Positions 553-25,200 of a DNA stretch of 64,000 nt are shown one piece after another. The position numbers and the translations under genes were made by a program. The stretch comes from a virus. A model generated the notes under the pieces. That model did no database searches and was not told where the DNA came from. It worked only from the letters and a program-made list of their open reading frames with translations. Location: the IMG/VR virus record IMGVR_UViG_3300008110_000042, positions 1 through 64,000 of that record, one strand, 5' to 3'. Numbering within the stretch: the stretch's first letter is position 1; each line of letters opens with the position of its first letter.

Positions 553-778
553 TATCTCCTCCAATATAGATATTAATATTCATGTTAGGCTGCGGTGGTA
601 TGTTCTTCAAAGAGAACTCCGTATACGCAGCGTTTAAAAAGATATCACTGAATGCTTCAGTAGCAAACCATAGCGATAACTTCTTACGCTTTTTCTTTGA
701 CAGAGCCAAAGCAGTAAATACTTTAACTGCTTCTTCCATGTCACCTTCACTTGTTATTTTGTACACTTTGTCTTTCAT
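518..778 (-). CDS. Hypothetical protein downstream of RNA polymerase
   Basis: This 86-residue protein starts in an ATGA overlap with the stop codon of the RNA polymerase gene, so the two are probably co-translated. The N-terminal half is helical and basic (a KKKRKK run); the C-terminal end is acidic. No family recognised. The next gene starts inside its last codons. Confidence 0.65.
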   Translation of the reverse strand: MKDKVYKITSEGDMEEAVKVFTALALSKKKRKKLSLWFATEAFSDIFLNAAYTEFSLKNIPPQPNMNINIYIGGDNEDDLETEQDA

Positions 779-3246
779 TGAAAGAAGTACTCGGCATCTA
801 AAACATTATCAATGTTGAATATGCCTACCTCTGGGGTCTCGGGCAATTCAATACCAATGTTTTGAATAAGTTCTTCTCGCATATCTGCTAACAGATTAGT
901 GCTGTGCATCTTATGAAACTCCTCATTAGTAAAGGCTCTCATAAGATTGACATCTGGAGCAGGACAACCATAAGAGTCGTGGATCATGCTGAACTGAGTG
1001 ATACCTGAATCAATCATTCGCTTGATGGTAGACCACATATGACTCGCATCCAACGAGTGTATGTAATTTGGAGAGATAGCCAGATTAACTGAGCTTCCAT
1101 CTATTGTTTCCTTATCTGGCGCACCAAAGTGCAGCTCTTTCATGTCGAACAGTTTGGCAACTGATCGTCTGGTTAATATTTCATAGTACTGGTGAACAAC
1201 CTTAAAGCCACATGGTGTAGTCCACTCAACATTCTTACCAACTTCAGAGAACATATCAGCTGTAACCTTGAGCCAAGCCTTACCCTTATTAGGTTCAATC
1301 AGTGTACCCTTGAGGGCGCGGTCAATAAAGGAAGCAAGTTCCATAACTGCACCAGCAATCTGATCTTTACCTACCCAATCAAGATGTCCTTCAGTCTTAC
1401 AGTATCTGCGAATACCGTAGAATGTTACACCATATGGGTCAGTCATCACTGCTCTCTTAACTACTGAGCGATCAATATCCCCTTCCCAATACTCAAGAAA
1501 TTTACTTGCCCACCGCCCCTTATTACTGTCTTCTTCTTTTACAGCAATCATATTATCAGTCATGCTATCTGCAACAAACTGATATAGATCCTGTGGCTGT
1601 GCTGTCTTGACTAGATTAACCTGCTTAGCTAGAGCAGGATCACGCATAAGCGCAGCCCAATGCTGTACACCATTGCAGGAACCATCCATCTGTACGGGAA
1701 CCTGCGTCATACCATCAGTACGACACAGATCAAACACAGCAGCAAGTCTCTGGAAAGAAGGATTCTTTTTCTTCTTGTCCGACACCCATAGCTTGCGTGT
1801 CTCATACGGATCATCATTGATTCGTCTAAACATATCCATATTATCTTGTACCCACTTAGCTCGTTGATCAAAAGGAACTTTGTCCTGATCAAAGAGATTA
1901 GCGACATGTACCTGTAGCCAGTACTTACCAGTTGTGGTTTGCTTGCGCGGTTCGGCAAACATAATAAGACCACGATCAAAGTCAGATGCTTGTGGTGACA
2001 GTAGATCACATGCTGAGTTAGCACGACCACGAAAGTCACAAGTAAAGATATGATAGAAGAACTTCTGAGGGATCAGATACTTAGCAAGCTGTAACCTGAC
2101 AAGCATACGACCACGCAACTGTTCTTCTTTATACCAGTTACTATAAGCCTCTTCCTTTTGAGCACACCATCTTGCTTGCTCTTCTTTAGTACCACTAGCA
2201 GGATATGTTTCAGCAAAGTCAAATGCTGAGAAGTCATACGCAGGAAGATTAGCTTCCCGTGTATTATTCTTAAACAAGTTCTCCATTACTTCAAGTACTT
2301 TAGTATTGATAGTCCACTCAGTATGCATCATTGCATTAAGACCATCAAGCACAGTCTGTGATGGTGTACTACCATTCTGCTGTACCTTCTCATCCCACAT
2401 TACATCTTTAAACTTCTGAACCACAGGCTTACGAACATACTGGAGAAGATTACCTCCGCTGCTGGTAAGCGTGTGCTCAATAGGTGGAACAATCATAGGA
2501 CGATAAAGCAATGCTGCCTTAGCAATAACATCTTGATGTCGCTTGTGCAACTCGCTAAGAATATCATCAGTAAAGGTAACAACTACTCGCTCAGTCCATC
2601 GCTTGCCTGTATGCTTACGAATATTCTTGAGCTGAATAATCTCAGACATCTCTGCAATACGCAGCATGTGATGTCCAAAGTCTTCTCGTTGTTTCCTATT
2701 GAAGTTCTTCTTGTTTAGCGTACCCATCTTATAAGCAAATGCTTTGCATCGCTTAGCAGTCCACTTCTTTTGGTAGTGAGATTGCTTAAGCCAATCCTCA
2801 CGGAACTGTTTCTTAGCTTGCTGATAAGCAACAATCTCAATTACCATCTCAGATATAACATGAGCAATATGCTGAGCAGTAGGCAGAGGAAAGAGATCTC
2901 CCTCATACTTACGCTCCCAGAAAGATGAGTTGAACCACTCAAGAATCAAAGCTCTGATAGTAATGTCAGCCATCTTTGCAGCACCTACTGCAAACAAAGG
3001 CGTAGCCCACTCAGGAGTCTTTCTATTCTCTGAGATAGTATCAATCCACTGCTGATAGAAAGGAGTAAGATGAATAACACAAGCATCAATCAATGTCTGT
3101 TCTGGAATACCTTCATCGGGATTAGCATTGTATGCATCCCAATACTTATTCTCAGATAGAGCAAGCATCTCCTCTTCAGTAACGATCTGAAGGGTTGTTC
3201 TCTTCTCCTGTTCCGTCTTCGTCATCTGATTCCATAGTCTCGTCAA
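775..3246 (-). CDS. Single-subunit DNA-directed RNA polymerase, T7 type
   Basis: This 823-residue enzyme (T7 gp1 has 883) transcribes the phage's own later genes from phage-specific promoters. The catalytic motifs are clear: motif A with DGSCNG near residue 520, motif B with KRAVMTDPYG near 600, corresponding to the T7 Lys631-Tyr639 helix, and motif C with IHDSYG near 754, supplying the second metal-binding Asp. The start is TTG at 3246, with AGGAGG seven bases upstream; the ATG at 3225 has no good ribosome site. It overlaps the upstream Cys-rich gene by 71 bases and is followed directly by a small gene in an ATGA overlap. It lies late in the early block, further from the presumed genome end than in T7. 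Confidence 0.97.
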   Translation of the reverse strand: MTRLWNQMTKTEQEKRTTLQIVTEEEMLALSENKYWDAYNANPDEGIPEQTLIDACVIHLTPFYQQWIDTISENRKTPEWATPLFAVGAAKMADITIRALILEWFNSSFWERKYEGDLFPLPTAQHIAHVISEMVIEIVAYQQAKKQFREDWLKQSHYQKKWTAKRCKAFAYKMGTLNKKNFNRKQREDFGHHMLRIAEMSEIIQLKNIRKHTGKRWTERVVVTFTDDILSELHKRHQDVIAKAALLYRPMIVPPIEHTLTSSGGNLLQYVRKPVVQKFKDVMWDEKVQQNGSTPSQTVLDGLNAMMHTEWTINTKVLEVMENLFKNNTREANLPAYDFSAFDFAETYPASGTKEEQARWCAQKEEAYSNWYKEEQLRGRMLVRLQLAKYLIPQKFFYHIFTCDFRGRANSACDLLSPQASDFDRGLIMFAEPRKQTTTGKYWLQVHVANLFDQDKVPFDQRAKWVQDNMDMFRRINDDPYETRKLWVSDKKKKNPSFQRLAAVFDLCRTDGMTQVPVQMDGSCNGVQHWAALMRDPALAKQVNLVKTAQPQDLYQFVADSMTDNMIAVKEEDSNKGRWASKFLEYWEGDIDRSVVKRAVMTDPYGVTFYGIRRYCKTEGHLDWVGKDQIAGAVMELASFIDRALKGTLIEPNKGKAWLKVTADMFSEVGKNVEWTTPCGFKVVHQYYEILTRRSVAKLFDMKELHFGAPDKETIDGSSVNLAISPNYIHSLDASHMWSTIKRMIDSGITQFSMIHDSYGCPAPDVNLMRAFTNEEFHKMHSTNLLADMREELIQNIGIELPETPEVGIFNIDNVLDAEYFFQ

Positions 3247-9628: not shown

Positions 9629-9659
9629 ATGTATTCCTTTAGAAAGAAAGAAAGTAATC

Positions 9660-9706
9660 CCTAGCCTTGTCGAAACAAGACACAGCCGAAGCCTATTCGG
9701 GATTTA
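9660..9706 (-). promoter_or_regulatory. Intergenic hairpins with promoter-like half site
   Basis: The 95-base gap between genes holds, on the minus strand, CCGAA-TAGGC-TTCGG and then CTTGT-TTCG-ACAAG, the latter with a TTCG tetraloop. No T-run follows, so neither is a classic terminator. CCGAATAG also matches the first eight bases of the 23-base element core, but the second half does not align without a gap. Confidence 0.35.
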
Positions 9707-9723
9707 CCAAGGTGGACAAAAGA

Positions 9724-10311: not shown

Positions 10312-10560
10312 TCAAACCTTTCCCGGCATAGCCGGAGTGCTCATTCCTTCAAGATCCTTGCGGAGATTCTTGTTCTGTTCCATACAATCTTCTAGATCTT
10401 GAGCAAAGTAATTCATTGTCTGAAACATACACTCAAGAAGTCCGTGCTTATCTTCAGGAAGGGATTCCTTCAAACGAGAGTAGAAGATTTCCTGACAACC
10501 AATGATCGACATAACAGTACGATCCTTAAAGTTAGATGAATGTCTAATTGCGATTGCCAT
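10312..10560 (-). CDS. Hypothetical helical protein
   Basis: This 82-residue protein starts at ATG 10560 after AAAGGTATGATACA. It is helical, with Cys residues near 22 and 44 and a coiled-coil-like region near 55-72. Its final codons (Pro-Ala-Met-Pro-Gly) form the hairpin that precedes the next ribosome site. No family recognised. Confidence 0.62.
   Translation of the reverse strand: MAIAIRHSSNFKDRTVMSIIGCQEIFYSRLKESLPEDKHGLLECMFQTMNYFAQDLEDCMEQNKNLRKDLEGMSTPAMPGKV
10323..10335 (-). promoter_or_regulatory. Hairpin next to ribosome site, copy 1
   Basis: CCGGC-TAT-GCCGG on the minus strand, followed at once by GAAAGG, the ribosome site of the 30-residue gene. The same layout occurs at 10874-10884. 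It may tune translation or mark a processing point. Confidence 0.4.
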
Positions 10561-10575
10561 TGTATCATACCTTTC

Positions 10576-10857
10576 TTAGTTAGATTGGAGTTTCATAACT
10601 GCACCCGAATCACCACGGGTAAGATGGCAAACCTTCACTTCCCGCTGCCTAACATAGACACCGGAGAGAGAACCACTGGCATAGAAGAACAAAGCATCTT
10701 CTCGCCATTCATTGTGCCAACCAACACAATCATCCTCACCAAAGAAGTCTTCATTCTTCAGCAAAGAAACAAGATGTGCTGGCGTAAAGGGAACGAAAGA
10801 AACACAAAGAACTTTGTAATCTTCCGAACCATCAAGACGAAACTCAACAAGTTGCAT
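10576..10857 (-). CDS. Hypothetical protein
   Basis: This 93-residue protein is preceded by GAAAGGTATAAGACA and a small hairpin. It has a beta-rich beginning, an acidic Glu-Asp-Asp-Cys-Val-Gly-Trp segment in the middle and beta strands with basic residues at the end. It is the first gene after the non-coding stretch 10858-11442. No family recognised. Confidence 0.63.
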   Translation of the reverse strand: MQLVEFRLDGSEDYKVLCVSFVPFTPAHLVSLLKNEDFFGEDDCVGWHNEWREDALFFYASGSLSGVYVRQREVKVCHLTRGDSGAVMKLQSN

Positions 10858-11051
10858 TGTCTTATACCTTTCTCGGCATTGCCGGATAGAGCATGTGGTT
10901 TATGTCTATAGTTATTCCTTACGGAATAGTTGGAGTCCTCACACAAGATCCAACATCACAAGGTTTACCACAAACCCTAGTTACTTCCACAAACCCAAGG
11001 CACACAAAGAGGGTGCTACTTGTTGCACGGATAGTAACTATTCGACTGAAA

Positions 11052-11081
11052 GATATACCATAGGTTTCCCTACGATATACC
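11052..11081 (-). repeat. Hairpin repeat, copy A
   Basis: In minus-strand RNA, 13 pairs (three of them G-U) enclose a GAAA loop. The arms are 11052-11064 and 11069-11081. It shares the apical TAGGGAAACCTA with copy B and the late terminator at 13187-13216. Confidence 0.65.
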
Positions 11082-11171
11082 GCTATGATAACACCGACAG
11101 GTTACATAGTTAGCCTGTCTGCAAGTCCTATATAAACCATCAACACTAGGGACTAATCGTGTCGTGGGAAA

Positions 11172-11201
11172 GATATACCATAGGTTTCCCTATGATATAT
11201 C
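11172..11201 (-). repeat. Hairpin repeat, copy B
   Basis: 13 pairs in minus-strand RNA (one G-U) with a GAAA loop; arms 11172-11184 and 11189-11201. It lies 120 bases from copy A and is nearly identical to it. Confidence 0.65.
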
Positions 11202-11406
11202 AACAGGCTTATGATTCAAATGCTAGTGACTACCTGTGGCGTATAGCAAGTATGTGCAATGTAACGCCCTGCACACTAGACGGTAGATTCGAGAGTCATT
11301 TATTATAGAGTAGGATAAAGCGGTACTTACCATAAGAGATGCCTTTAGTGCATGTTATGGCAACACATAGCCATCCTACCCAGATTGTGTAAACTCTCAA
11401 TCCAAA

Positions 11407-11436
11407 GGTATACCATAGGCTTCCCTAGGGTATACC
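11407..11436 (-). repeat. Hairpin repeat, copy C
   Basis: 12 of 13 positions pair in minus-strand RNA with a GAAG loop; arms 11407-11419 and 11424-11436. It starts just after the stop codon of the GC-rich gene at 11443. Confidence 0.6.
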
Positions 11437-11442
11437 GAATAA

Positions 11443-11721
11443 TCAGTACCGACCACGAGCCATGCGATCCAAGTTAGGCATATGCCCATGAGTATCACTA
11501 TGGCGTTCCTGCCACCTTCCAGACCGTTCTCGCGTAGACCATGTAGGAACATAGTCACGCATCCTGCGAACATCCTCAATCGTAGCATGAATACCACGAT
11601 GTCGGTGAATGAACACCAAAGCATCAGATACTGATACTTTAGCAAACTTGGCAAGCCTAGGGGCAAGCGTAGCCGCATCGTTCACCGAACGGACATTCGC
11701 CAGACAAACCGCTAGATTCAT
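11443..11721 (-). CDS. Early basic protein, GC-rich gene
   Basis: The second ATG (11721) is preferred because GGAGG lies seven bases upstream; the ATG at 11727 is too close to it. The product is about 92 residues and Arg-rich, with an Ala/Val-rich helical first half and a basic second half that includes RRMRD and TRERSGRW. The gene is clearly richer in G and C than the later early genes. As the second gene after the presumed genome end it may act on the host soon after entry, but no family is recognised. Confidence 0.58.
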   Translation of the reverse strand: MNLAVCLANVRSVNDAATLAPRLAKFAKVSVSDALVFIHRHRGIHATIEDVRRMRDYVPTWSTRERSGRWQERHSDTHGHMPNLDRMARGRY

Positions 11722-11736
11722 AGCCATACCTCCGTT

Positions 11737-11787
11737 GGGTATTCCATCGGATACCCTAGACCATCTAGGGTACCCGAAGGAATACCC
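11737..11787 (-). promoter_or_regulatory. Long hairpin in the leader of the next gene
   Basis: The arms 11737-11759 and 11765-11787 pair over 23 positions around a five-base loop. In minus-strand RNA 21 pairs are Watson-Crick, one is G-U and one is U-U. The 3' arm ends right before the GGAGG site of the gene starting at 11721, so the structure may control its translation or be cut by RNase III. Confidence 0.65.
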
Positions 11788-11812
11788 CGCGCCGTAGCAC
11801 GGGGTAATCCAG

Positions 11813-12127
11813 TTAGCGACCGTCGAGCAAAGCATCCAACTTACCCTGCGCCGACCGCTTATTCACGACCTTGCCGATGTACATCGTACCGACAGCCTCC
11901 CACATGAGGCGCTTCGTTTCCTTATCCATGTGGGGAACCGAATCCATGACGATGTAGCAAGCGCACCGAACCTTGTTGCGGTAGTGCTTGTGATCATGGA
12001 AACATTCCATGCCGTACTTCACAACATCTGCGAACATATCCGGGCGAACTGCGCCGGAATTCCGCGTCTTATCAATGGCTTCCTTCACGGCGCCCCGGAG
12101 CATCGTACCATTCGTAGTAGACATCAT
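11813..12127 (-). CDS. First early gene, hypothetical
   Basis: ATG 12127, six bases after GAGG, gives 104 residues. The protein is mixed and Cys-containing, with HDHKHYRNKVRCACYIVMD in the middle and a basic end. It is the first protein gene after the 1.1-kb non-coding region and thus probably the first to enter and be expressed. No family recognised; the position suits a host-takeover or anti-defence role, but the sequence does not show one. Confidence 0.58.
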   Translation of the reverse strand: MMSTTNGTMLRGAVKEAIDKTRNSGAVRPDMFADVVKYGMECFHDHKHYRNKVRCACYIVMDSVPHMDKETKRLMWEAVGTMYIGKVVNKRSAQGKLDALLDGR

Positions 12128-12149
12128 GTAATCCTCGCTAGATTGCGTA

Positions 12150-12213
12150 CCGATACCCAACGCGGGTATCGGCTAGGATACACTAGGTTATCCCTAGTGT
12201 ACCCTAGCCGATA
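12150..12213 (-). promoter_or_regulatory. Overlapping alternative hairpins upstream of the first early gene
   Basis: A perfect nine-base stem (12150-12158 with 12164-12172) and a 21-position stem (12167-12187 with 12193-12213; 20 Watson-Crick and one G-U in minus-strand RNA) share bases 12167-12172, so they cannot both form completely. They lie just before the GCGAGG site and ATG 12127, as in an attenuator or translation switch. Confidence 0.55.
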
Positions 12214-12656
12214 TCCCCTACGAAAGAACGCAGGGGATACCAGCCACGCGAATCAATCGCGGGATTATCCGGGCGAATATTGAGGAGGCGTGCGCCTTAT
12301 CGGATGTAGGCTACCCTTGAGGGTACTTTCCCGCCGTCTCCACGCATGGTGCTACCCATGAACAGAGCGGAACCTAGTCCATTTCCGTGACCCCATACTC
12401 ATACCTAGGCTAGTGAGCGTTGACAACGCAGACCTAGGTACCCCTTTGGGTACACCGTAGACTCACCGTTATACTCCGGGAGAGTAGCGTCTACGAGACT
12501 TTCATACTAGACCGAGTGACAGCCTAGAGCGGATCGGTAGACTCCGCTATACACCGATGATCGCCAGACCTTACCGCTCTAAATACTGCGGGGAGGCGAC
12601 CACTACACTACCGAACGCCGGAGCCGGATGGAATGCTAAAGCATCCCAGGGTTTGC

Positions 12657-12740
12657 GTCCGATAACATCGTGGGGGCGTTCCTAGATTATCGGACGATGC
12701 CTACAGAGGTTATCGGACACGGGCTAGCAAGTCCGATAAC
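12657..12740. repeat. Four alternating copies of GTCCGATAAC
   Basis: Copies lie at 12657-12666 (forward), 12687-12695 (reverse, nine of ten bases), 12709-12718 (reverse) and 12731-12740 (forward). They form two successive inverted repeats. Such an array could bind a protein in replication, packaging or transcription. Confidence 0.6.
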
Positions 12741-12747
12741 TCTGGCC

Positions 12748-12785
12748 GGGGGTGACGGGGGGCGCGCAAGGGGGGATCAGGGGGG
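12748..12785 (+). other. G-quadruplex-forming sequence
   Basis: Four runs of five or six G on the plus strand are separated by loops of 4, 7 and 4 bases (TGAC, CGCGCAA, ATCA). This satisfies the usual G3+ N1-7 pattern. It lies next to the inverted repeats in the probable end region. Confidence 0.6.
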
Positions 12786-13143
12786 ATACCCCTTCGCTAA
12801 TTTTTGACCCCTAAGTCGATTTCTTACGGGAGCTGTGGTCCCTGCCTTGTTTCTAAGGGGGCTAGGATGCCTCAGGATTGATTATCTGATTGAGGTCCAC
12901 CCTGCGGTCCCCTTGGGGTCCGGGGCCATCCCTCCGGTCAACTGGAGGGAAATCGACAAGGGATAAAACCGGGGGGTTAAACCCCGGAGTGCTTGTTCCT
13001 ATTGGGTTATTATTGTTGTTGTAATTAACAAGGGATATACCTAGGTTAACCTAGGGGTCTTAGCTAAGACTATACACAACAATAATTAAAACTATAGGGG
13101 TTAACAGCTAAGGGATAACCTAAGGTTATACTATGGTATATCT

Positions 13144-13166
13144 TCATTAGCCCCAACTATTCGGAA
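13144..13166 (-). promoter_or_regulatory. Candidate phage RNA polymerase promoter, copy 1
   Basis: On the minus strand it reads TTCCGAATAG then TTGGGGCTAATGA, two bases from consensus. It lies in non-coding DNA downstream of the late terminator and points into the early block. It is the only copy outside a coding sequence, so its conservation cannot come from protein constraint. Confidence 0.6.
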
Positions 13167-13176
13167 TACATGTCGA

Positions 13177-13216
13177 TAAAACAAATGGGGCTACCTAGGT
13201 TTCCCTAGGTAGCCCC
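13177..13216 (-). terminator. Terminator after the last virion gene
   Basis: A perfect 13-base stem (GGGGCTACCTAGG and its complement, 13204-13216 with 13187-13199) encloses a GAAA loop and is followed in minus-strand RNA by ATTTGTTTTAT. It lies seven bases after the stop codon of the giant virion gene and should end late transcription. Confidence 0.88.
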
Positions 13217-13222
13217 CATAGA

Positions 13223-16200
13223 TTACTCTAACAATTTGCCTAATTCTTCTGATACACCTCTCTGGTCGTAACCCATAGTCTTTTGTTTACCTAAGGCTTT
13301 TTCTGCTTGAGCTGTCTCCATCACATAGTTGCGTGGAGCTGGCTGATTAACATCCAGAGATATAGGACGGAACATAGTTCCGGCTTTCTTCTGGTATGGG
13401 TAAGGTTCTCTTTGAACCATATCCAAGTATTGTTGAATAGCATTCATTTCCTTAAATACCTGAGCATCTTCCAATACTCGTACTGGAATTGCTACTGGAC
13501 TACGATTAACTAGGGAGGTAGGGCCAAACAAGTTACTGGCTTCCTTAACAGCGTTTATTGAAAAGGGATCTTCAATAAGTCGCTGAGCACTTCGGAAGTC
13601 AGACTCTAGTGTATTCATTCCTGCTCCAGCACCAGCTGGTAGGAAAGGTACACCATAGTACTTATAAGTACCACCTGTTAGACCAGCTACAGTGCTTACA
13701 CCGGATTCAAGGAATCCGTTGTATAGACCAAGGAATGGAACTCTGGTTAATCCACGAAGAACATACTGGCTTGGTTGTTTATCAAGTTCTTCCATTATAT
13801 CTTCTGTTTCACGACCAGCTAACCATTCTTTGAACAAGCCTACAATTGTATCCATAGCGGCATATAAGAATATACCACCAGCTAAATACTTAAGTGTGCT
13901 TCGTCCACCGTAATCAAGAATAACATTGTCCTGATAGGACTGTACCCAAGAAGTAAGAGCATACCACATTCTACCTAGGGCTGACTTAGAATCAAGAGAA
14001 GTCATCTTGTTAAGTCCACCCAATTCAGATGTAGCTGTCTTTATAATTAGGTCTTCAACCATGAAGGCATAAGATGAAATAGCTGATTCCATTACATCCA
14101 TATCAATACCTTCTACTGGGTTGTTTCTAAGATCTTCATGGATATCCATTAGATCTAGAATGTTGACTCGGCCATCTCTATGGTTGGCTTTTTCCATTGC
14201 CCACTTAAGATGTCGAATCTGTTCTTTAGTTGTCAAGCCATACTTTAAGAACAAGGCAGCTTCGTTTGCATCACCAAACTTTGCTGTATGTCTTGCAATA
14301 CCAGCAAACTCCTTCCACAACTTGGCTTCAGCTTTGGCATCAGTAGCCGCAGCTTTCTTTAACTCAGCCAATTGGGAAGCAGTTGTAGTCTCAGTCAAGG
14401 CATCAAATAAAGTCTCAACTCTACCCTTGCTAATATCCCTCCAGATCATTCTCTGGATTCGTTGCTTAGCTAGAGCGCGTGTACCATTTGTAATTGCCTG
14501 TAGAGAACCAATACTTTGCATCCATTTACCAGCTTCTTCCAAAGTTCTGGTTCCTTTTTCCAAAGCACCTACACCATTCTTTACATTGATTATAGTGTCG
14601 TTTACACGAGTTCCAAATCTTGAATCAGATTTGAATGCACCATATCCAATCTCTCCCATATATCTATTAGCTAGATCTGTACGGAAGCTTTCAAGAATAA
14701 AAGTCATGTCACCAATATCAGACTCCAATAGCTTTCGCTTTGAAGCACGATAATCAGCTAGGACATAACGCATAGCCTTAATAATGTTTTTTGGTATTGT
14801 ATATAACTCAGGACTTTGCTTAGCCAACTCAGTCATGGTTTCAGTGAAAGCTGAAATACCATAACCAGCGGAGAACTTAAAGCGGATTGCTGCCAATCCA
14901 ATTCTAGCTGAGTGTCCTGTCTCTGACTTTAGATATGGCAAGGTATCAGCATTAAACTGATACTCTTCATACAATCTATTAAGACCTTCTTCCAAACTAT
15001 TCTTTGCTGTTCGTAGTTCAGCTTCTGACCAGTCCTGATCCTTTGACAGATTATCAAAGCTATCATAAGTTTTCTTACGAACATAATTAAATACATCTAG
15101 AATAGTAATACCTGTCTTACCTAACATTCGGTCAAGTTCTCTCTGGAATGCTAGCTCAAAGTATCTACCCTTTAGGAAATAGAAGTAAGCCTCTGCAAGA
15201 TTAGTTCTAAGGATAGCCTTAGTCTCGGGAGTACTAAACATCTCTTCTGGGGTTAATCCCTTGATTGGTAATATAGTCTTACCTTCTGGATCTAACTTAA
15301 AGAAAGGTTGGTTATAAATAGAGTTAAAGTCTTTAGTGCTGTTATAGGGATAACTCTTAGTTTTAAACTTAAGCATCTCTTCCATCTCAACACGAACTAG
15401 ATTTCTACCATCTAGTTTCTTTCGCCACTTCTCTATGTACATCGCAGTGTCTCCTTGGATAGCTGCTATGTACTTGGTCTTATCATGTGGAGCAAGATCT
15501 GTAACTCTTTCTGGAATACGATAAACAGAATATCTGTCATCAAATTCCAATACAAAGTATTTCTCTGGATTACTCTTTCTAAGGAGTTTTAGAATATCAG
15601 ATTTCTTTCCAGAGATTCCAGACTTAGTGATATCGCTCTCATGTAACTTTTGTAAAGTATCTAAACTAAACATATTAGCTGCTTCTGAATAAGTGATGGT
15701 TCTATCAGGAGCAAATATATTTAATGTCTGGTCTTTCTCGTTGTATTCAACATCGAGCCAGCCCAAGACAATCAATGTATTGATGTCTAGTTTATCGTCC
15801 TTTAACTTTCTATTTGTGCGAACTTCTACTAGTTTATCCAGTAGATTACTACGAGCAGCCCTGTCTCTCATTATAGATTCAAGACCTTCGTGATCAACTT
15901 GCGTTGGTGCAAAGACATCAGGAGATATTGGATTACCATCTGCATCTACAGTTAACAAACGACCTGTGTTTGTTTCTAGATCCAGAATGTTTTTGTTTGC
16001 CAATCTAGCAGCTTTTAATAATAGAGATAGTTGTTTTGTTATTGGCTCAGCATACAATGCTGGAATACCAAGAGCAACTATATCTGCTTTATTAGGCTGT
16101 TTGTTTGTAAACAAAGTTTCATAAGTATATATATCAAGTTGTGCTTTTTGATCATTAGTCATGCGTGGCATGATTGTATTGATTTTAGCATACTCTTTAA

Positions 16201-19200
16201 ATATACGGGTAATCAATCTACCTTCTTCACCTCTGAGTTGCATTGCTGTCTTAAAGGCAGTCTTTCCAGCACCTACCAAATGTCCTGTTTGAGTCTTACG
16301 ATCATCAAAGAAACGAGACACAAACGAAAGTAGTGGAGCAACACTTCGCAGAGTATCACCTTGTCGTGATCCATTCTGTGTTGCATTCACACTCTTGTTC
16401 ATTAAGTTTTCCCACCATGTTCGACTATCTCTTTGGTTTCCACCAAAGATTGCTCCAACAAGATTGTTAACTCTTAGTAAACGAGAAGTACCACTCTCTA
16501 CATTATTGATTGCATTCTCAATAACTTTTTCATTTGGTAACTCAGGCTCGGGTGCTGTTGGTTCTGGTGGAATCTCAGCTTCTTTAATATCTTTAATAAC
16601 AGCATCTGTTGATGGAGGACCGGGAATCTTTGCGTCTATTCCGGCTTCATCAATCAAGGATTTAACCTTTTTTGTTTTGCCGTTTAAACGATAATTACCT
16701 GCTTCATCTACTTTAGTAAATACAATATCTTCAGGCAATACAGGAATTACAAATTCTGGTTTGCCTTCAATTTGAATTTCTTTTGCTGCTTTATCTAAGA
16801 GCTGACGATAGGTAAGTGGTTTCTTTCCTGCTGGTCCTTCAGTTACTTTTACTCGTAATGAATCAGACACATACAATCTATCAACCGCTTGCCAGAACTT
16901 TGTCAGTATATCTTCACCAAGCACACGCTTATTTGCATCAGCAATAAACTGATTTACATTTACATAGTGTGACCAAAGCATTTCAAACATTGGGGTGACA
17001 GTCTCTGAGCCATCTGGTTCAACCTTTGATTCCCAATATTTCTTTAGGAACTTTCGGAGGAATCCAGAATCCATTCCAGAAACTCTTAGCAACTCAATGT
17101 CTTCATTAAACTTGCGTTCAATCTTTTCTGCTTTAGTTGTTTCAACAACATCAGTTGGAATTTCTTTGACAGTTGCAACTATCTTCTCAATAGTTGGTAG
17201 TCTAGTTTCTCCAGTTGGTACTGTTGTTGTTTTAGATTTTGGTTTTCTTGGTACTCTAATTTTTTTAGTAGCAACAGGTAAACCTTCTTTTTTCTGTTTA
17301 GGTGCATCTATTCTTGGTCTGTTAATAACATTTATAACAGGGGTATTATCAGCAGCCTTTGCAATCTCTAACATCTTAGGTTGTTCAGGCACAGCATCAA
17401 TTACAGTTGCTCCTAACACTGGCAGATCTGAAGTTGTTAAAGGAATAACAGAACCATCTTTAAATACTAAAGCATCAGAACCAATTCTACTTGCTGTCTT
17501 TTTTACACTTTCAAGTTTTACTGGATCTGCTGAAAGTATATCAGCTGACTCAACATCCATCTTCAATGGACGCTTTGGAGTAAAGCCGATAGCTTCTTTC
17601 TTACCAGAGTTTGTTCCATTGAGAATAGCATCAACTTGTTTAGCAGGACGAATAGTTTGTTCTGGCTTTTTACCAGTAATAGTTTCTTCTGTTGCTCTAA
17701 ATAGTGATGCTTCTGTTTCTGGAATAGTAGGAGTTGCTAGTGACTCTGGATTCTTATTCTTTAAGCTTTCAGCTAAAGCTTGAGTCTGTCGTATACGCGA
17801 ACCAGCTTCAACAATTGTTCTTTGTTTCGTAACTGGTTGAACTCTTGTAGTATTTTTAATTTCCTTATTTGCTTTTTCTGCATTCTTTCTTGATTCTTCA
17901 ATAGCTTTCTTTTTATCATTATCTAGTTCACGAAGCTTTTGTCCAGCTTCATTTAGAGTTGATTCAAGTAGTTTATGCTTAGCAACTTCTTCAGTAATAA
18001 AAAGTTTTAGGGTGTTTAGTCTAGCAGTAATAGCAGCTCTCTTAATAGCTTTTCCAAACAGCTTTTCAGATTGTGCTGCTACTTTAGAGTCTGTACCTAA
18101 AGCAAGTTTTGCTTTTAATAAAGATACAGCTTCAGGCGTTAACCAACTACCATTAGATGCTTCATGCCACTCTAAAGCTTTTTGTAAATAGACATCACTA
18201 AGTTCTGCTTTACCTAGTTTCTTTTTCTCATACAAATTAGCTAGTCTATTAGTTTGTACTGGCTTTTCATTTGTGCCTTCATCAGAATCAACATTGAGTC
18301 TTCCAGCTCTTTGGTCTTTTCTTTCTTGATCTTTAGTTGCATTCTTACCAGTGGTTGTTAAATAAGCCATTAGATTATTAATAGTAGCAATATCACCATT
18401 AGCAACTGCTAGTTCTAAAGATGCTGTTCTCTTTTCACTTACCTGAATGACAGTATAAGCGTCTATTAAATCTGGACGAAGAGTTATAACTTTAATCAAA
18501 GCTTCTTCTAAGTTATCAGTAGTCACTACTTCTGAGAGTTCACTAGCAGCTTTTTCTTCTGACTTTAACTTTGTTGCTGAAGTAGACTCAGCTGCTTTCT
18601 TTCTTTTTGACTTTGTTGTAGGTTTGTTTATTACCCACTTACCAGATCCTTTGGTTTGCTTTACTTGATCGGTATTAATCATATCATATAAAGTACCAAT
18701 GAATTCTTCAGGTGATTTACTACCAGTCAAAATTTTATTTACAATAGCTTCATCTATATTAGCAGCCGCTACTTTAACTAATAGACCTATGTCAACTTTG
18801 GTATCTTTTAACATTACAATATTAGCTAAAGCATCTTCTTTATTTTGCCATCTTACAATATCTTCAGCTGGAGTATTATCTCCATCTAGTTTATTGAATA
18901 ATGGTAGACCGTCTTTTAGAATAGCCATTCGCATTTCATCTGTAATAGGTAGATAAGGCTGTTTACCTATGCCATTAACTTCTTGTAGTTTTACAGAGGT
19001 TTTATATTTCTTGCCAATTTTGTTAGCAACTTTTACCATTATGTTTTCATAGAACTCTAGATAACCAGTAGCACCAAACAACATAGTCCCACCTTCTTCA
19101 GATGGTTTTATAACAAAAGGTTCAAATACATTATCACGACTACTATCTGTAATCTCTTTAGCTTTTGCTTTACCTACATAATTATGCAGTTCATTTGCAG

Positions 19201-22200
19201 AAATATCATCGAAGTTTCGTTTATTACCAGATTTTTCATCAATAGTTATATCGTAAGAACCAAGATAATTTTTAGTTACAAAAATTTCAGAAACATTATC
19301 AATTATAATTTTGTTATAACGATCAGCTTGTTGTTGTCCTGTAGTCCAAGCAACACCATCAAAGCCATGCTCTACAGCATACTTTAACATGCGTTTGAAT
19401 ATCAAACCACCCCATGCTTCTGATGATTTAAAAGGAGCTAAAGGTAATAGATCTGGATCTATAAGATTAAGACCTTCATTTAATGCTGTTAAGTCATCTA
19501 ACTCTCTTGCTAAAGTACTTTCATATGTGAATAAAAAGTCTAATTCCTCAATATGCTGTTTATATGGTTTTACATTAGGTAAAACATCAGATGGCAATTT
19601 AGACATTAATTGCTGCTTTAAAAAGTATTTAACTAAAACAAGAGCATCTGCTAAGTCTTTAGGTTCTTTTATTAGTTTTAATTCTAAATTCATTCTACTT
19701 ATTATATTGTCAACACTACTACTACGATAGCCGTATGCAAACGAAGAAGAATATTTAAATAAAGGATGTTGACTTATACTAATAATGTTATTGCCCATAC
19801 TATAAACAATATCTTTTGCTTTTGTCATTCCAGTAAGATCAAAATTACCTTCTGGAAATATAGCACCTACTCCAACTTCTTGTGAGCCATCAGCTATATC
19901 ATATAAAATATGTGCAGTAGAATCATTAAATGCATAGTTATTGTCCATAAGATCAAAAGTTTTATTACGAATAACAATATAAACTGGTTGTGTTATATCA
20001 ACTCCATACGCATCAATAGATTGTTTAGATTTCCACGCTTTTTTAATTTCATCAGCATTAAAAGAAAGCTCAAACAATATATTATACTTATCTAGTTGTT
20101 GTGTTTTAGTTGAAAATAATTTATCAGGTAGTTCAGTATTAGAAAGTTTTACTTCATTATCCATAATTTTTTTTATATCAGGAACAATTGTATCTAATCT
20201 TTCACTAACTTCTTTTATTCTCTGTTCGTTGTTAACAAACTCTTCAGGTTTTTCTGGTGTATCTTTAGGACGATAACCTTTTTCGTTTCCTTTTTGATGC
20301 CAATCGCTTTGAAATTCTTCACCAAATAAAACTTTAAAGTTTTCTGGAGTATATCTAGTATTAGCACGACCATGTACAACAACATTTGTTACTGGAGTGT
20401 TATTACCATGCCAGCCTCCTTCCCAATGTGTCATACCACTTTGTAATTCAATATCAGGAAATCTAATTAAGAATTCTCTTTGATCTTCACCATTAGGTAA
20501 AACTAAAGTTTCGTGTTGATATTTATCCCAGATAGTATGACCACCGGGTAGTGGCTTTTCTATTGTTTCTCTATAAGGTGCAAATAAATCTAAGATAGCA
20601 CTCTGAATATTTTCTGGTAATTTATCTAATTCGGTTTTAAGATATTCTTCAACTTGATTAAAAACAGTACTATAAACCTGAGCGCGTAATTCTTTATTTC
20701 TGAAATAAGGATATAATTCAGGTTGTTCTCTCATTAATCTTTCTTTAGGTAAATTATTGCCCCATAAAAGTGATTCATTAGCTTTAATTACATTTTCAGC
20801 AGTTACTTTACCATATTTAGATTCAGGTATTACTTCTTCAGGATAGAAAGTTGTAGCTTGCTCTTTACTAGTTACAAATTCAATATTATCTTTACTTGAA
20901 TTAATTAGATTACCATCTTTTAATTTTACATATTCCATACCACCAAAGACTTCTGACTTTTCAATATTAGCTGCAATAAACTCTTTAATGGCTGCAATAA
21001 GAAGCGGCCAATTATCTTTATCTGTTATTTCTGCTTGTTTTTCTAAAGCGTATTCTCCTAGCTTTTTAAAAAACAAAGGATCTCTAAGTGTTTTAGAAAC
21101 AGGAATAACGCTAGAAGGAAATACAATTGTTTTGTAAGTTTTACCGCCGCTACTAGTAACTGAATCAGTTATTGGAAGTGTATCTGTTTTAATAAAATCG
21201 TGTACTAAAACTCTTGAAACATTTTTCGTAGAATGAACTATTGTTGTTTCCGAGCCTTTAATAACTTCTTCTATTTTAACAGGTTTAATAATAGAAATAA
21301 GTGTATTTAAATCTACTTTAGCATCTTCAGGTAATGCATCCATATATTCTTTTAGACCAGTCCATTCAATCTCTTCTTGTTTAATACTACCCTTAACCAA
21401 CAAAGCAGCAAGTTGTTGCTTTGTCATTGTTCTTTGTGGATTAGTCTTTATTGTTTCAACAAGACTAGAATAGAATGTAGACAACATCAATTCTTTTTGC
21501 GGTGTTGTGTTAAACGAAATATCAAATAGTTTATTTGAAGGATCATCAAAGCCTAAAATAAAAGCGGCTCTTCCAAGAAGACCAGTAACACTAGCCATTT
21601 CACTTAAACCATTTTTCTCTAATCTATCTCTAACCAAATCTAAAATAGAATTATTAAAGTATTCATTTGAGCTAACAGTCTGTAGCAAGTTTGCTCTGTC
21701 TTCAACAGACATAAGATCTTTATTAGTAAAAGAAACAAAATCATACTTAGGATCTAATACAGGTTTTGCTTTACTACCAAAGACAGTCTTATCAAATAGA
21801 GGATCTGAAGCAACTTCAAACAAACGCTTACCTGTAGTAACTAAGTAAGCATAGTCATACTTACCTTCAGGAATCTTTTCTTTCTTTGCATATTGTTCAA
21901 ACACATCAAGGATCTTAAGTGAGCGTTCTTCATAAGTAGCTGGAATAGCTCCCATGTTTCTTCGCTCAGCGCTGATTGAGAAGAACTGTTCTTTAAAGTA
22001 TTTTAGTCTTTCTTCGGTAGTCATGTTAATAAACTTATCGTAGTCTTTAGCTGACTCAAAGAAATACATTACTTTATAAAGAAGAGAGTTAGTCTGTGTC
22101 TTTTTATATTCAGAGTAAGCTTCAACAAACATATTAAAATGTTTGCCTATTCTACCACCAGAATCAATTGCAGATAGCCCTTGGCTTTTAACTATAGTCA

Positions 22201-25200
22201 TAGCAGCTATCATAGCTGGATCAAAGTATTGACCATTCATCAAGAATTCATACTCACCTCTAGTAAGCATGTACTTGTCATTGATTCCTTTTTTATGGAT
22301 TATTGTAGCAAACTCACGCGCATTAGTAGCAAACTTAGTATAGCCACCAGTTAACTGTGCAGATCTTGCAAAGACTTCATTTAACTCATGGACAGATAAT
22401 GTTTGATCTGCCATTTGTTTATTGATGTTTGTAATTTCTTTTACAAGAGCACTAGCAGTATCATAAAACTCAGAACTATTTAAAATCCTAGTTGCGACTA
22501 GAACTGCTTTCTGAATATCTAATAAAATAGATTTAGTCCAAGAGACATCTATTGGATTCATCTGTTGTATTATTGTTTCAGCTTCTGTTAACAATACTTT
22601 TGAAAAAGTCTGTACAAAAAATTCTTCAGCATTTATTAAATGATAAGTACTTAAGAATCTTTCGTTTAACATAGGATCATCTAGCTTTAAGGTAGATTTA
22701 AAACCCTTGTCTTGAACAAGAGCCATACCAAAAGATGAAACAGCTTTGTTGTATAACTTAAGATTTGATAAATAGATATTACCTGTAGCTCTTGATTTAA
22801 AATAAGCGTGACCTATCTCATGTAGGATAGATCTAATGCGCTGATTTGATCTTGCTTTTGGAGATAGGAAATAACCAAAGTTTGCATTAAGTGTAATCTT
22901 CTTCTTATCATATTCCCATTTAGCAACAGTAGAAGCATCGCTTACTATTGACTTTGTTCCAGTAACTTCATCTGTCTTTACTGTTGTCATTTTTTCTACA
23001 CCAAACTCAAGGAATGGAACATCACTAAAGTTTAGATGAACAACAGAAGCAAATAAAAGAATACGATCTTCGCTTGTAAGCATGGAGTTAGTTACAAGAC
23101 TGTCAACATAGTCTGCAAACTTTTTAGCGGAGTCTTTGCTACCTGAAACAATAGAAACAAAAGCATTTGATACATCTGCTTTGTTATCATTTAGATATTT
23201 AATCTTAGCTACTCTATCTTTATCAACCTTTGCAATATTAATTGCGTTTCTAATTTGCATTGATAGAGCGTTAAAAATAGTTTCTTTGCGTTCCTTAGCT
23301 CCAGCAATATCTCTTACGGCATTCTCAGTTGTTTCACTGATTTCACCAGTAAGCTTTGCTTCTAAAATAGCAGCATCAACAACATCAGAAGCTTCTGTTG
23401 GAATACCAGCTTTTACAGTCGCTTCTCTTTCTGGAGAGGTTGCAGCAGATTCAATAGCTTCAAGTAACTTATGAGCTGCTTCTTCTGCCGCTACTTTTCT
23501 TTCAGCTGCTGGCTTTGCTGTGTCTCTTGCTTCCTTAATTAGATCAGGAATATTACGCTGAGATCTTTTTTTTAATCCTTCTAGTTCTGCCTTAAGTGCC
23601 TTATAACGATCTGAACCTAGACGCTTACGAAGTCTAAAAAACTCTCCCTTGCGTTGTCTTTCTAGTTCTTCATAGACACGCTCTCGTTCTTTTGGTAGAC
23701 CAACAGCTTCTGTTTCTACCTTCTTGGCATCTTCTAGAAACTTCTTACCAGCAAACAAGACACGCATTTTATCAGATACTGACATTTGATCAAAGACTTC
23801 ACCAGACTCAATAAATCGCTCAGAGCCTTCATTATTAGTACGACGAGCAAACTCAGTCATTACTTCATGTATATTTCTAAAGACACGATTAGGCGCTGCT
23901 CTAGCAATATATTCTGCTGTAGTTTCATTCTCATATCGGCGTGTACCTACATCTTCTGGTGTTGATCTAGCTACTTCAGGAGAATTCAAAGCTTCTCTTG
24001 TTTCAACACGATCAACTCTTGCTTCAGTTTCGGTTGCCATTTTTTCTGCAGTAATATCAGTATTTTCAATTACTGCTTCTTTAGCTAGCTTTTCTGGAAC
24101 TGGAGCATCAATGATTGGCTTTTCAGGCTTCTTCATAAGACCAGAAATATTATCAATTGTATTACCTAGTGGAGTTCCTTCAAGGGTAAGACGCTTATCC
24201 AATGAGTTTCTAAGCCCACGACCAGCATCAATCTCTACGCCTTGCACTCTGTTTCTAACAGCACCAACACCACTGCGTAACAATCCACCACCAAGACCAA
24301 ACACACCACCAAACGCCAAGCCTTCTTCTAATGCTGTTGTAGCAATCAAAGAAGCATTATAATCAGTGAGTGCGTATGGGTTGGCGTATAGAGTTGCAGC
24401 ACCAAAGGCAATTTCTCTTTGCTGTCTAGCATACTCAGCTAAGCCACCTTGTACTGCTCCGAATGTAAACGCAGCAGCAGCTCCACGCAGCAAACCAAAG
24501 TTACTTACATAACTAGGCATAATGCCAAGTGGTAGTTTATAAAGTGTTTCAGTTGTGTAAGCAGTTGCCCTTAAAGCCTTACCAGCAACAGATGCAGAAT
24601 CATAGACACGCTTTAAGCGCATAAACAAAGATGTCCCACCTAAAGCAGTGGCTGTTGCTTCTGCTGCCATAACACCACCAGCTAAACCAGCGGCGGTTCC
24701 TACTCCCGGAACAAGAGATCCAATGGCTGTTGTAATACCAGCTAATGCCAACTCAGCACCAATACTTGGAATAGTGTCAGGGCTATTAATCATACCTCCA
24801 ACAAGACCATCTCGGAATAAACGAACATAGTCTAGTGTTGTTGGTTTGTATGTTCCAATTCTTTTTTGAATGTCAGTAACATTTAGCTGATGCATGATAC
24901 GAATCATTGCATGGTCAGCATTTGGAGAATCACTTACAAAAGAAGAATCAATACCATTTTCTAATAGATATTGATTTACAATTGGATTTGAAAACTTACT
25001 TGAAAACCAATTATTTGGTTCAAAGTTTGGGTCTTCTCTTGCCATAATCTTTTCAATATCTTTTGTATCTCCAGCTAATTCTGTATCAGAGAATGAACTA
25101 GTAATTCCAAACAAATCTTGAGCGACAAATTGATCGAACCAGTTAAAGCCTAGCTTTTCATCAGCTTTGCTTTGTGCTTCTGCATACAAAAGCTTTGTTG

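Follow-up and report, generated by a model that had tools for sequence, protein, structure and literature searches.

Three short hairpins, A, B and C, in a noncoding gap of the window (here, the whole stretch of DNA analysed, bases 1-64000 of a 66,203-base IMG/VR virus record) are, on comparative evidence, real minus-strand RNA structures, preserved during the evolution of a set of uncultured T7-like phages. Comparison of related contigs shows that these hairpins enclose conserved structured RNAs, and that the RNA modules come, go and change place as units. With respect to function, the leading reading, at about even odds, is that the hairpins are processing signals in the early transcript of this T7-like phage family, releasing structured small RNAs.

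The genome can be assigned by its proteins to a T7-like phage, an addition to the first-pass annotation of this DNA that follows from the single-subunit RNA polymerase (775-3246; RNA_pol PF00940, E 1e-83; phrog_414), the terminase, which yields matches as well, and the portal; capsid, primase-helicase and DNA polymerase are also encoded. The nearest isolates are distant, with polymerases about 28% and terminases 35-39% identical. The minus strand carries all the long genes of the window, and along this strand, the end of the 4154-aa gene is followed by a 1-kb noncoding stretch, two small genes, the gap that holds the hairpins, small early-type genes, four tRNAs and the polymerase gene (Table 1). 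Because of the gene order of T7, the genes around the gap are read as early ones. The entire gap folds far better than shuffled sequences (z = -7.0). The 4154-aa ORF has relatives in every tested contig that covers it (36-69% identical in their last 1000 residues), and the noncoding stretch after this gene contains three to four copies of GTCCGATAACC, possibly a terminal-repeat, origin or operator element, in L024 (2471-2531), L027 (2242-2302) and L047 (1930-1983), with one copy in the window, at 12708 on the minus strand. Searches from the small flanking ORFs matched the same phage alone; relatives, denoted here by L numbers, were gathered via RNA polymerase and DUF932 alignments and scans. 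All sequences compared are metagenomic, and several contigs are close kin: the hairpins and RNA of L006 are those of L002, and L003-L005 have most of theirs in common.

Table 1. Positions of the hairpins, the RNAs between them and the surrounding features in the window
Feature	Position	Strand	Description
4154-aa ORF	13223-25687	minus	end of late genes
Late hairpin after 4154-aa gene	13187-13216	minus	13 bp, GAAA loop, then AUUUGUUUUA
Noncoding gap holding hairpins A, B, C	10858-11442	minus	585 bases
Hairpin C	11407-11436	minus	13-position stem, 12 paired, one C.U mismatch; GAAG loop; then UUUG; 5' boundary of the C-B RNA
RNA1	11285-11403	minus	closing stem, ~10x10 internal loop, long arm; comparative support from L007 and L047
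RNA1b	11202-11284	minus	possible pseudoknot CUACC/GGUAG crossing CUAGUG/CACUAG; sequence inspection, window phage only
Hairpin B	11172-11201	minus	13 bp, 1 G-U; GAAA loop, then UUUC
RNA2	11082-11171	minus	90-nt B-A spacer; predicted structure, -21.3 kcal/mol
Hairpin A	11052-11081	minus	13 bp, 3 G-U; GAAA loop, then UUUC
Leader, hairpin A to start of ORF 10576-10857	10858-11051	minus	194 nt

The first-pass annotation had described a three-copy hairpin family in this region, with irregular pairs in A and B that are all G-U in minus-strand RNA, an apex that these two copies share with a late terminator, and no T-runs, and each of these observations stands. The three hairpins lie and pair as described, without a single A-C pair in minus-strand RNA, and were also recovered independently as repeat family D1. 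Minus-strand RNA is predicted to fold more stably than plus-strand RNA in every case, at -15.9 versus -3.5 kcal/mol for A, -16.9 versus -11.3 for B and -16.8 versus -15.3 for C. The motif TAGGNTTCCCTA, with at most one mismatch, occurs 5 times compared to the expected 1.08 (0 of 100 shuffles reach 5), and exact copies of TAGGGAAACC are found in A, in B and in the late hairpin, a probable terminator that shares its apex with both. Each of the stems A-C is followed by three T, whereas other, terminator-like hairpins of this genome run into TTTTT or TTTTTTTT (5-8 T). With hairpin A begins the leader that precedes the next early gene; this leader ends with a small CCGGCAAUGCCGAGAAAGG hairpin and a ribosome-binding site. 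Small UCCGGCUAUGCCGGGAAAGG-type hairpins are located directly before the ribosome-binding sites of several early genes (10321-10342 and 10873-10887, minus strand), and also in L007, L010 and L047. A distinct leader element, CUUUYGUCCACCUUGGUAARUCCCGAAUAGG...CUAGGGAUUACUUUCUUUC, is found directly ahead of an early ORF (9629-9723, minus; L008:1794-1890; L047:4884-4977). Across these three phages, 5 of its pairs are doubly compensated, and no Rfam match reaches the gathering level.

Two pattern scans, over 2.9 million viral contigs each, agreed on nine contigs, among them L009, which does not differ from the window across the hairpin region; the relatives found through the polymerase and DUF932 contributed L047, with two more copies, and variant hairpins in L016, L049 and L052. 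In all, the family is represented in 12 other contigs, nine with the hairpins and three more with variants. Among the 17 distinct hairpins, divergent ones included, 219 of the 221 stem cells pair, 3-5 standard pair types are seen at each position of the stem, and the deviations on the transcribed strand comprise 36 G-U, 0 A-C and 2 others. For the main family (17 copies), the corresponding counts are 30 G-U and 0 A-C, or 7 against 0 when taken per stem position and type (p = 0.008 if independent, a value that shared descent makes optimistic); the covariation score of the main family alone is not clearly above column shuffles (44/500). In the divergent hairpins, 103 of the 104 cells pair; 5000 shuffles of arms between hairpins gave 59 on average and 95 at most. 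The first-pass annotation proposed that the minus-strand RNA retains the structure and looked to compensatory changes in homologues as a check; these compensatory and wobble changes bear the proposal out. Perfect tetraloop hairpins of exactly 13 bp show the same orientation, with 21 in sense and 2 in antisense among 14 related sequences. The variants have stems of 13 bp (L008, L016 and L052) or 14 bp (L049), so that a stem of about 13 bp and a mostly GAAA-type loop persist despite complete sequence difference. Directly downstream of the hairpins, 5' leaders with a common GUNUGNUUUCUUUCU tail begin.

The RNAs that lie between the hairpins had no place in the first-pass annotation. RNA1, within the 205 nt that separate C from B, is 77% identical to a stretch between the two hairpins of L007. 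A covariance model built from the window and L007 only, and searched over 574 kb, blindly matched L047:2413-2536 (40.5 bits, E ~3e-6, on a short calibration), with the runner-up, at 16.7 bits, matching a known member in antisense; blastn did not find the L047 relative. The folds predicted independently in the window, L007 and L047 agree, and 18 of the 39 pairs are doubly compensated, compared to 6.3 in shuffles and 1-3 in slid controls, the count being made on three sequences in a model-fitted alignment that leans towards structure. The conserved parts are AUAAAUG, in the internal loop, and UAAGUACCGC, which belongs to the core of the arm, GCYAUGUGUU...UAAGUACCGC. A search of a wider set of related phages with RNA1 model R3 yielded three members only. 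Taken together, these observations make RNA1 a well-supported candidate for a new structured RNA. The adjacent RNA1b may form a pseudoknot, and no homologue was found of RNA2, the 90 nt between B and A.

Other phages of the group hold different RNAs in the same place. An unrelated RNA, with a proposed pseudoknot and, in all, 7 doubly compensated pairs, is enclosed by the same hairpins in L002-L006, and its first loop carries an invariant CCUCCUCA on a stem with three double changes. Representative sites of this RNA, with the loop resembling an anti-Shine-Dalgarno sequence, are L002:3700-3890 (plus) and L003:9325-9486 (minus). Pairing of the CCUCCU loop with the start site of the RNA polymerase gene was tested and rejected, these phages having AAGGAGATAC or AAGGAGATGC there. 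A third RNA is found in L008, between one variant and one consensus hairpin, and a fourth in L016, adjoining variant hairpins. Comparison also backs a suggestion of the first-pass annotation, that the hairpins are parts of a small RNA, here in the sense of a small-RNA unit.

The gain and loss of these RNAs can be followed at several junctions. L004 and L024 have a common upstream gene (249 of 260 bases identical), after the stop codon of which a hairpin-RNA-hairpin unit and one small gene are present in L004, not in L024. In L047, a 190-nt RNA and a hairpin lie between a stop codon and UCUUUUGUCC / TCTTTTGTCC, which adjoin in the window; the module therefore ends at the hairpin base. The setting of RNA1 differs as well: in the window and L007, it lies between GNRA hairpins, whereas L047 has it within the apex of a long hairpin, GGCTAG...CTAGCC, that precedes the first early gene. 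This long hairpin has a plain loop in the window, L027 and L050. L010 has a single hairpin without any RNA, and one hairpin of L047 lacks a preceding RNA. Because of these arrangements in L004/L024, L047 and L010, and the placement of RNA1, the RNAs can be said to behave as modules, with the hairpins as boundaries. Ahead of the first early gene of the window, 12167-12240 (minus) holds a conserved hairpin pair, UAUCCCCUGCGUUCUUUCGNAGGGGAUAU and the 21-bp GGCUAGGGUACACUAGG; in L047, the RNA1 relative is at the apex of the latter.

Under the processing interpretation, a double-strand-specific endonuclease, most likely RNase III of the host, would recognize stems of some 13 bp that have a GNRA-type loop and, on the 3' side, an unpaired U-rich flank, and would cut near the stem base. 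Cutting would free the RNAs between the hairpins (RNA1 with RNA1b; RNA2) as stable small RNAs and leave the downstream early mRNA with a defined 5' end (UUUC...). Transcription, cleavage, the identity of the enzyme and a role of the small RNAs in trans are what we infer here. RNase III matures T7 mRNA, and the E. coli enzyme cuts a 12-bp tetraloop stem on one strand and loses activity on shorter ones (PMC8708148). Two features to be sought in an RNase III signal are present in the window, namely, a T7-like genome with a single-subunit RNA polymerase and, on the transcribed strand between early genes, an RNA helix of at least 12 bp (12-13 pairs, with sense wobble and covariation). Because stem length is constant and sequence is free, an enzyme that measures helix length would fit; the module boundary at the hairpin base in L047 argues in the same direction, as do other early gaps of these phages, which contain 21-24-bp hairpins that would suit ordinary double cleavage. 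Comparison also backs the processing sites that the first-pass annotation listed among its options. On the other side, the sequence conservation of the main family exceeds what RNase III should need, and with 13 bp being close to the minimal substrate, single-strand cutting alone would be expected; the covariation score of the main family by itself, the L047 hairpin that no RNA precedes and the lone hairpin of L010 also speak against processing. A long hairpin with 24-nt arms lies at the junction of two early genes at 11737-11787, and its relatives, 22-bp covarying hairpins between the first two early genes, are located at L005:6050-6097, L050:3806-3853 and L047:3079-3126.

It seems rather unlikely that the hairpins are weak intrinsic terminators or attenuators which lower downstream early transcription and form the 3' ends of small RNAs. 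The stems are stable (-16 to -21 kcal/mol) and followed by UUU, and the late hairpin is built alike, with 13 bp, a GAAA loop and a tail that is richer in U. However, a U run directly after the hairpin is missing, most copies having three U and then C or G, unlike the 5-8 T of the other terminator-like hairpins of the genome; a terminator scan called none of A, B and C; hairpin C would sit 5' of RNA1; and the same strand carries essential genes further downstream, that of the RNA polymerase included. Intrinsic termination at A-C is accordingly disfavoured.

Instead of being cleaved, the hairpins could be bound by a sequence- and structure-specific RNA-binding protein of the phage or host, such as an antitermination or translation factor: the main family keeps GGUAUACC..UAGGGAAACCUAUGGUAUAYC in phages with differing neighbour genes, and GNRA-type loops are common contacts for proteins. 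We nevertheless consider such a role quite improbable. In L008, L016, L049 and L052, the shape persists although the sequences are different, and a binder that reads sequence would be expected to accept this only if it had coevolved. No candidate protein was identified.

Still other roles could be envisaged for the repeats as DNA, that is, as operators, promoters of the phage RNA polymerase or recombination sites, with the RNA hairpin being incidental: GGTATACC is itself palindromic, with two copies per site at a spacing of about 22 bp; TAGGGAAACC resembles a T7-type start; and the modules between the repeats are exchanged, as recombination between direct repeats could do. This is very unlikely in view of the strand asymmetry of both the deviations (36 G-U to 0 A-C) and the 13-bp hairpins (21 sense to 2 antisense), and of the variants that retain pairing only. 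Moreover, strong matches to the hairpin model in the 66-kb record are confined to one site, 11048-11436, with none ahead of the middle and late genes, where T7-type promoters would be repeated; the phage promoter reading is disfavoured on this ground, too. Mimicry of CRISPR repeats was set aside given that the 13-bp stems exceed the hairpins of such repeats, which are shorter. Finally, although the early region of these phages is generally hairpin-rich, a functionless chance cluster of palindromes can be practically dismissed, considering the conservation of the family in 12 other contigs, the compensatory changes and the structural selection on RNA1 itself.

The processing interpretation invites comparison with known systems. 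The closest are the RNase III signals of T7, in particular, R1.1 and its minimal 12-bp tetraloop derivative (PMC8708148), with which the hairpins share the T7-like genome with a single-subunit RNA polymerase, the location on the coding strand between early genes and a stem length that matches the minimal substrate. R1.1 in its natural form has a 49-nt stem with an internal loop (PMC8708148), and the hairpins of the window are shorter and more regular; furthermore, unlike R1.1, they come in one to three similar copies that bracket conserved small RNAs. RNA1 resembles the GOLLD and ROOL RNAs of phages (PMC12286853) in being a conserved, structured, phage-encoded noncoding RNA in a genome with tRNA genes; however, these RNAs extend over several hundred nucleotides, whereas RNA1 is about 120 nt long, away from the tRNA genes and without an Rfam match. 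Like 6S RNA, RNA1 combines a closing stem with a large internal loop and a long arm, and the loop strand AUAAAUG (UAUAAU in the window; UAUAAUAAAUG) recalls the open-promoter mimic of 6S RNA; RNA1 is shorter, with another conserved core in the arm, and because it has no 6S match in Rfam at E <= 5, the resemblance can be taken only as a lead. In the L002-L006 RNA, the CCUCCUCA loop is reminiscent of the anti-Shine-Dalgarno loops of the alpha-r14 RNAs, such as NfeR1 (PMC10746234), but these have three loops compared to one; this loop is absent from RNA1 of the window, and no target was found.

At gathering score, Rfam identified four tRNAs only; a permissive search of 10800-13230 gave chance-level matches, and no covariance model matched among the families that include 6S, GOLLD, ROOL and self-cleaving ribozymes. 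At the sensitivity used, isolated phages and bacterial genomes yielded no homologue, with 50,697 phage records searched and GTDB genomes scanned for exact patterns, and the literature gave nothing direct on such hairpins or small RNAs in T7-like phages. The hairpins would be a variant of processing signals that are already known, and RNA1 and the L002-L006 RNA are, as far as the Rfam, phage and GTDB comparisons show, undescribed structured RNA candidates. More tentatively, it is conceivable, if speculative, that uncultured T7-like phages carry exchangeable cassettes of undescribed small RNAs (RNA1, the L002-L006 RNA, the L008 RNA and others), with the hairpins of about 13 bp as both processing signals and module boundaries, and that the RNAs influence the host in trans, for instance, as decoys of its RNA polymerase or ribosome-binding sites. 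T7 serves as the classical example of RNase III processing in phages, and we know of no small RNAs cut from its early transcript. If the hairpins release structured RNAs, this T7-like group would deploy regulatory RNAs by way of early RNA processing, and the hairpins would flag further such RNAs directly in genome sequences. RNA1, with its defined conserved core, lends itself to direct testing.
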